Below the pieces are notes generated by a model. That model saw nothing but the letters and a program-made list of their open reading frames with translations. It was not told the DNA's origin and searched no databases. A program made the translations under genes and the position numbers. A stretch of DNA of 64,000 nucleotides. Origin: Prochlorococcus sp. AG-679-M10. GTDB lineage: Bacteria > Cyanobacteriota > Cyanobacteriia > PCC-6307 > Cyanobiaceae. This document shows, in pieces, positions 51,304 to 52,305 of this stretch. The stretch lies in the NCBI GenBank assembly GCA_003210655.1, contig QCUQ01000001.1, forward strand, positions 62,001 through 126,000, read 5' to 3'. Positions within the stretch are counted from its first letter, which is position 1. Each line of letters starts with the position of its first letter.

Positions 51304-51483
51304 TTATGCCGGCAATCTACAATCAAGTTCTATTATTCCTTCATCCATAAGTCGACCAATTTTTAAAACTAGTGCCATATCTAATCTTGAGAAATCTGAT
51401 TGGTGATTTGTAATCCAATCCAATTCAGATAAAGTTATTACTCCAGAAGTATTAACTTTGAGAAAGAGTAATCCTAAATTCAT
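51304..51483 (-). CDS. Conserved small protein in hli operon, 59 aa
   Basis: MNLGLLFLKVNTSGVITLSE, then LDWITNHQSDFSRLDMALVL and KIGRLMDEGIIELDCRLPA. The pattern resembles a small winged or helical domain; soluble. It is the last gene of the minus-strand hli operon. Function unknown. Confidence 0.65.
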   Translation of the reverse strand: MNLGLLFLKVNTSGVITLSELDWITNHQSDFSRLDMALVLKIGRLMDEGIIELDCRLPA

Positions 51484-51490
51484 TTTGATA

Positions 51491-51580
51491 TTAATTAGTT
51501 ACTTTTTTTCCTTTAGCAATCATCAGTACTGGTACTAAAAGATATGTAAAGAATGAGATTAAGAAAATATCTAGATTCAT
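51491..51580 (-). CDS. Single-helix membrane peptide in hli operon, 29 aa
   Basis: MNLDIFLISFFTYLLVPVLM then IAKGKKVTN. It starts one base after the upstream hli stop (TAAAATG) and ends eight bases before the next gene, so it is likely translated with the operon. Confidence 0.6.
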   Translation of the reverse strand: MNLDIFLISFFTYLLVPVLMIAKGKKVTN

Positions 51581-51581
51581 T

Positions 51582-51710
51582 TTAAAAAATCCCAGGTATG
51601 ATCCAGCCAAAAAGACCGTAATTAACTACTAATGCAAAGAATCCCATCATTGCCATTCTTCCATTAGTTCTTTCTGCATTTTGCCAGTAGCTAGGTTTTG
51701 AGTTTTCCAT
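51582..51710 (-). CDS. hli: High-light-inducible protein (42 aa), divergent C-terminus
   Basis: SYWQNAERTNGRMAMMGFFA then LVVNYGLFGWIIPGIF. The NGRMAMMGF core is retained, while the usual GAYxTTGQ is NYGLFGW. Fourth gene of the operon 52305-51304. Confidence 0.93.
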   Translation of the reverse strand: MENSKPSYWQNAERTNGRMAMMGFFALVVNYGLFGWIIPGIF

Positions 51711-51734: not shown

Positions 51735-51989
51735 TTAAACGAAACCTGGAATGATTTGACCTGTAGTTAGATATGCACCAACTGCAGCTATAAGTCCGAT
51801 CATTGCAAATCTACCGTTAAGAGTTTCTGCAACAACTTTTTCCTTCTCGATTGTTTTAGTTTTTGTGTTTGTCATTTGATTTTTGTTTGAATAGATTAAA
51901 TTTTCTTCTTGAAATTGTTTAGTTAGATAAACAACGAGTAAAGCAGTTAGAGATACTATCAAGATCAAAAAAACTGCTAGTGGACTCAT
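51735..51989 (-). CDS. hli: Fusion of a one-helix peptide with a high-light-inducible domain (84 aa)
   Basis: ATG 51989 overlaps the stop of the upstream hli gene (TAATG). The frame first encodes MSPLAVFLILIVSLTALLVV (a transmembrane helix) and a linker QEENLIYSNKNQ, then without a stop MTNTKTKTIEKEKVVAETL and the HLIP core NGRFAMIGLIAAVGAYLTTG. A separate hli protein of 46 residues could also start at ATG 51875, but no ribosome site is visible there. The product is either a two-helix HLIP or both forms. Confidence 0.8.
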   Translation of the reverse strand: MSPLAVFLILIVSLTALLVVYLTKQFQEENLIYSNKNQMTNTKTKTIEKEKVVAETLNGRFAMIGLIAAVGAYLTTGQIIPGFV

Positions 51990-52198
51990 TAAAAAATACC
52001 TGGAATGATTTGGCCTGTTGTCACGTATGCGCCTAATAGTGCTACGAAGCCAATCATCGCCCAACGACCGTTAACTTTTTCTGCATTTTGAGGGTAACCG
52101 TCATAAGAAACTGATTCATCTATGTAAGGACGAGTTTCTGATGGGAACATATTTTGTCTTCCGCCAGACTCAGTTGTTGTATATGAAGAATTTGACAT
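51989..52198 (-). CDS. hli: High-light-inducible protein (69 aa), long N-terminus
   Basis: A 38-residue polar N-terminal extension (SSYTTTESGGRQNMFPSETR) precedes AEKVNGRWAMIGFVALLGAY then VTTGQIIPGIF. Start and stop both lie in TAATG overlaps with neighbouring hli genes, so translation is probably coupled through the operon. Confidence 0.93.
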   Translation of the reverse strand: MSNSSYTTTESGGRQNMFPSETRPYIDESVSYDGYPQNAEKVNGRWAMIGFVALLGAYVTTGQIIPGIF

Positions 52199-52305
52199 TA
52201 GAAAAAACCAGGAATAATTTGGCCAGTTGTTACGTATGCGCCAACTGCTGCTACGAAACCAAGCATTGCTGCTAAGCCGTTAAATCTTTCTGCGTCAGGT
52301 GTCAT
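52198..52305 (-). CDS. hli: High-light-inducible protein (35 aa)
   Basis: First gene of the operon: TPDAERFNGLAAMLGFVAAV then GAYVTTGQIIPGFF. Nearly identical to the gene at 38989 except for a few residues, so one of these loci is a duplicate of the other. The upstream element GTTATATTTGTTTAC is also shared. Confidence 0.94.
   Translation of the reverse strand: MTPDAERFNGLAAMLGFVAAVGAYVTTGQIIPGFF

Follow-up and report, generated by a model that had tools for sequence, protein, structure and literature searches.

The third of four hli genes in an operon of Prochlorococcus sp. AG-679-M10 carries, ahead of an ordinary HLIP, an additional hydrophobic helix and a linker. Two published accounts (PMC3020630, PMC3750529) treat cyanobacterial HLIPs as one-helix proteins, with a single two-helix fusion reported, from one Synechococcus strain. 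Is the longer frame of this locus a genuine two-helix gene, and if so, how did its two parts come to be joined?

Organization of the locus

The 84-aa frame (MSPLAVFLILIVSLTALLVVYLTKQFQEENLIYSNKNQMTNTKTKTIEKEKVVAETLNGRFAMIGLIAAVGAYLTTGQIIPGFV), called type 1 here, is located at 51735..51989 of the window, the whole stretch of 64,000 nucleotides analysed, and is recognised by its open frame, its conservation and its dN/dS. It runs from an ATG at 51989-51987 to a stop codon at 51737-51735; all coordinates given for the window are on the minus strand. Residues 1-38 (51876..51989) are the added helix module, with a strongly hydrophobic segment at residues 4-22 followed by a TKQFQ.EN linker. In some relatives this module is a stand-alone microprotein gene of 31-40 aa. 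Codon 38 is CAA (51876..51878), at the place where split relatives have a TAA stop, and codon 39 (51873..51875) is an internal ATG, likely the original hli start. The HLIP part of 46 aa (51738..51875) contains the other hydrophobic segment, residues 62-80, and within this the chlorophyll-binding motif ExxNGRxAMxG, here AETLNGRFAMIG, of which E, N, G, R, A, M and G are invariant among 95 distinct fused sequences. The match to PF00504 is weak, scoring 21.9 bits against a curated cut-off of 22.3, with a same-genus orthologue at 25.0 bits. A search of Pfam and NCBIfam with the free helix returned no match. Stops are present in the other forward frames of the helix region in the window.

The operon begins with a 35-aa hli gene (52198..52305), followed by a 69-aa hli gene (51989..52198), the two-helix gene and a 42-aa hli gene (51582..51710; PF00504 25.5 bits), an order that is kept in orthologous operons. 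The stop of the 69-aa gene overlaps the start of the two-helix gene in the sequence TAATG (51987..51991). The sequence-only reading of the window had described a helix and linker running without a stop into a normal HLIP between hli genes, and this is confirmed, at 84 aa and with the coordinates exact. Its expectation that the long form should be translated from the TAATG start is supported by the presence of the overlap in all 95 distinct fused sequences and by a dN/dS of 0.19 in the helix.

Beyond the last hli gene lies a 29-aa hydrophobic microprotein, MNLDIFLISFFTYLLVPVLMIAKGKKVTN (51491-51580, minus strand), which is conserved at this position in related operons. A 59-aa protein, MNLGLLFLKVNTSGVITLSELDWI.. 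(51304-51483, minus strand), past the operon, is conserved in related operons too.

Distribution

By sequence search, the full-length two-helix gene is present in about 149 of 200 genus genomes (~75%); of the 66 genomes with a completeness of at least 90%, 60 have it. The counts were made from search rows with a best E below 1e-30 as the criterion for full length and with the split genome G081 set aside. The carriers include single-contig finished genomes and the named strains MIT 9107 and MIT 9302. One genome, G015, has two fused copies, each adjoining a 69-aa hli gene; the MED4 positions of PMM0817 (773,638) and PMM1398 (1,345,512) (PMC7852597) fall in these two 69-aa genes. At a loose threshold the first helix alone has matches in 82 of 101 genus genomes. 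On this distribution, the two-helix gene is a genuine, conserved feature of most high-light Prochlorococcus genomes.

Beyond the genus, matches are mostly limited to the HLIP part. A profile search with the helix found nothing convincing outside the genus (best 1e-3), the copies within it having E values of 3e-11 or better. Among cyanobacteria sampled across the phylum, 16 candidate HLIP frames (mostly long ones) were inspected, and none contained a two-helix protein with a start. A phage origin of the gene was considered and rejected. The 490 matching phage records match the HLIP end only (residues 57-84 among the matches listed) and none reaches 80% query coverage; nothing related to the helix and linker turned up in a scan of viral contigs.

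In six loci from other genera (L040, L041, L042, L045, L054 and L055), a one-helix protein of 57-61 aa is found downstream of hli genes. These proteins end in ..FHxxxxGKPL or GRPF, and the one tested had no Pfam or NCBIfam match.

Selection on the added helix

Selection was assessed in the 95 distinct DNA versions of the fused gene (81 proteins), collected as open frames. The dN/dS is 0.19 for helix codons 2-27, 0.26 for the whole module (codons 2-38) and 0.04 for the HLIP part; linker codons 34-38 have a value of about 1 and thus evolve freely. Six residues (S2, F7, L8, T15, E29 and N30) never vary, although the codons of several have undergone many silent changes. Of the 431 parsimony changes in codons 2-38, about 18 would be expected to create stops in an unconstrained sequence and none does, although this count is a guide rather than a test because the 95 copies were chosen as open; the test is the dN/dS. 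By that measure, the helix module is evolving as protein and its frame is not open by chance.

A second two-helix HLIP

Nearly every complete genome of the genus that was examined has a second two-helix HLIP, about 84 aa long and starting with MDALTSF or MSPLTGF, in which a related helix is joined to a different HLIP subtype. The window's own genome has it on another contig (G000:C11); it was not found in G081, which is 71% complete. The second type resembles type 1 in its related first helix, its HLIP second helix and its length. It differs in its HLIP subtype, NYGFFGWIIPGFI, in its KRLQEPLEP linker and in often having no Met at the junction. In other genera, the HLIP that matches this second type has one helix, as in the 38-aa protein of L039. 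Judged from these genomes, two-helix HLIPs are normal in Prochlorococcus. The suggestion in the sequence-only reading that such a protein is unusual in the genus was wrong, because this second, distinct form is nearly universal there, besides the presence of type 1 in ~75% of the genomes.

The internal start codon

Codon 39 is ATG in 94 of the 95 fused sequences. It underwent a single change on the tree, compared with a mean of 12 for the flanking codons (P about 7e-5 under a Poisson model). The exception is G028, which has ATC there with the frame intact and another in-frame ATG at codon 36. In four loci (L051, L057, L070 and L072) the helix is broken, yet the frame from the internal ATG still encodes an intact HLIP, and this start thus appears sufficient for the HLIP. 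The conservation of the hli ATG at 51875, far above its flanks, was not part of the earlier reading of the window, and it suggests that one mRNA probably yields a short one-helix HLIP besides the long form. G028 was initially of interest as proof that no short form is needed, and was dropped in view of its ATG at codon 36.

Three rival accounts of the locus can be weighed against this. Removal of a stop codon by a sequencing error, which the state of the window's assembly (62% complete, 42 contigs) might encourage one to suspect, is effectively excluded because complete genomes in a single contig have the same frame open. It is very improbable that translation starts at ATG 51875 alone and yields just the short HLIP, with the helix frame an untranslated or chance extension. 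The conserved internal ATG and the persistence of the HLIP at the four loci with a broken helix would fit such an account, but it does not explain the invariant TAATG start, nor helix codons that evolve as protein, with their six invariant residues and the module's dN/dS of 0.26. That only the long form is made, with Met39 merely a retained residue, is a more serious proposal. The intact frame of G028 with ATC at codon 39 agrees with it, as does the frequent absence of a junction Met from the second two-helix HLIP, showing that long forms alone can be used by the cell. Even so, it appears rather doubtful, given that codon 39 is conserved far above its neighbours and that G028 has its other in-frame ATG just three codons upstream.

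Split relatives and the origin of the fusion

The sequence-only reading had proposed that a microprotein gene and an hli gene lost the stop between them, and that orthologous operons be compared for it. In three genomes a TAA is indeed found directly before the hli ATG. In G081 (L066), the helix is a free 40-aa gene that is followed by an in-frame TAA and, with no gap, by the hli ATG (...NSK TAA ATG, reading MENSKTK...). The same TAA-ATG junction is present in G098 (L249) and G073 (L247), where the helix frames are damaged, and in G073 the HLIP at this locus is a different paralogue. G089 (L245), closely related to G081, has a CAA-ATG junction and a frameshift farther upstream. Among the fused copies, codon 38 is CAA in 76 of 95 and CCA in 15 of 95. 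Both G025 and G094 have a fused copy plus a split copy in which the hli gene is not in frame. Assemblies of the split genomes are fragmented, and errors at single loci are possible in them.

In SerA trees, G081 branches first in the genus, with support of 89 (protein) and a weak 50 (DNA), and no fused copy was found in this genome at its 71% completeness. The TAA-ATG split loci and the position of G081 support the loss of the TAA as the origin of the fusion. A tree of the HLIP part, which at 37 codons is too short to settle the direction, gives no clean separation of split and fused copies, a pattern to be expected under recombination among hli copies. The reverse, in which the fusion came first and the split loci arose when a stop was gained (CAA to TAA), is less likely. 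Fused forms are far commoner, and G089 with its CAA sits among the TAA relatives G081 and G098, so that the change could have gone either way there. Against this, the TAA precedes the ATG both in the deepest lineage and at the different-paralogue locus of G073, and HLIPs outside the genus have one helix, which makes an ancestral fusion unlikely. Several of the split helices show decay, and this makes an important role for the free microprotein less plausible.

Between the upstream hli and the helix, split loci (L066, L068, L069, L237, L239-L246, L249 and L250) have a 20-codon mini-ORF, MEPISPELYKKLVKAYESTR or similar. It is intact where the helix has decayed, and there is no room for it in the fused loci with their TAATG overlap. 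In L020, from 1765 onwards, the HLIP part alone is tandemly duplicated, without the helix, directly after the fused gene.

Comparison with known systems

Nearest to the two-helix gene among known systems is hli5OS-B', a coh1/Psb35-HLIP fusion found in hot-spring Synechococcus (Kilian et al. 2008, cited in PMC3020630 and PMC12130749). There, as in the 84-aa protein, a helix without the motif is N-terminal to the HLIP helix, and the partner is elsewhere a separate gene. However, that fusion belongs to another lineage, whereas the Prochlorococcus gene is widespread and has visible split relatives, and the MSPL helix is compared with Psb35 (ssl2148) by analogy. Compared with one-helix HLIPs (HliA-D and OHP1, with the PF00504 motif), the C-terminal 46 residues of the 84-aa protein are an ordinary HLIP, to which a conserved N-terminal helix and linker have been added. 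The two-helix SEPs likewise have two transmembrane helices and one chlorophyll-binding motif, but they are eukaryotic and their order is inverted, with the motif in the first helix (PMC3020630) rather than in helix 2 as in the Prochlorococcus protein.

A resemblance to LHC helices 2-3 was also considered. Both helices can be aligned with PF00504 positions 82-158 and with some solved antenna chains; this was not used as evidence because the score exceeds that of the HLIP part by itself by just a few bits.

Proposed mechanism and function

The explanation that best accounts for the locus, and which is judged probable, is a conserved two-helix HLIP that was joined by stop loss, forms a hairpin tethering its two helices, and is accompanied by a short form. 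A one-helix microprotein gene (MSPL...) would once have stood in frame before the hli gene, with a TAA directly preceding the hli ATG, and a change from TAA to CAA would have joined the two. There is no positive charge before helix 1, and the linker has 7 K/R against 4-5 D/E. From these charges the positive-inside rule predicts a membrane hairpin with a lumenal N-terminus, in which helix 1 would run from lumen to cytoplasm, the linker would be cytoplasmic, and helix 2, the ordinary chlorophyll-binding HLIP helix, would have its usual orientation. A single-sequence structure model has two long helices with low-confidence packing (pLDDT 67, pTM 0.34).

A helper helix would in this way be tethered to the HLIP at a fixed 1:1 ratio, and retention of the hli ATG would probably allow the short one-helix HLIP to be made from the same mRNA. 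The one-helix protein Psb35 binds and stabilises HliA/HliB on CP47 and in some Synechococcus occurs joined to an HLIP (PMC9145668, PMC12130749), and by analogy the tether would most likely be of use in photosystem II photoprotection or assembly. Transcript data show an increase of 15 high light inducible proteins in MED4 when nitrogen is withheld (PMC5607370). Translation of the long and short products and their role in photosystem II are what we infer from the genomes compared here.

It is possible, and is put forward tentatively as slightly less likely than not to hold in full, that one gene supplies both a tethered two-helix protein and a free one-helix protein, and that this helix became fused to HLIPs of different subtypes on two or more occasions in the genus. 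If true, this would be a living record of multi-helix LHC-like proteins arising through single stop-codon losses in packed hli operons. Prochlorococcus is among the most abundant phototrophs. Two-helix HLIPs are standard equipment there, none was found in the sampled members of other genera, and the stop-codon step that can make them is visible in living relatives. The step by which LHC-like proteins went from one helix to several may thereby be tested directly, as may initiation at a conserved start inside the frame.
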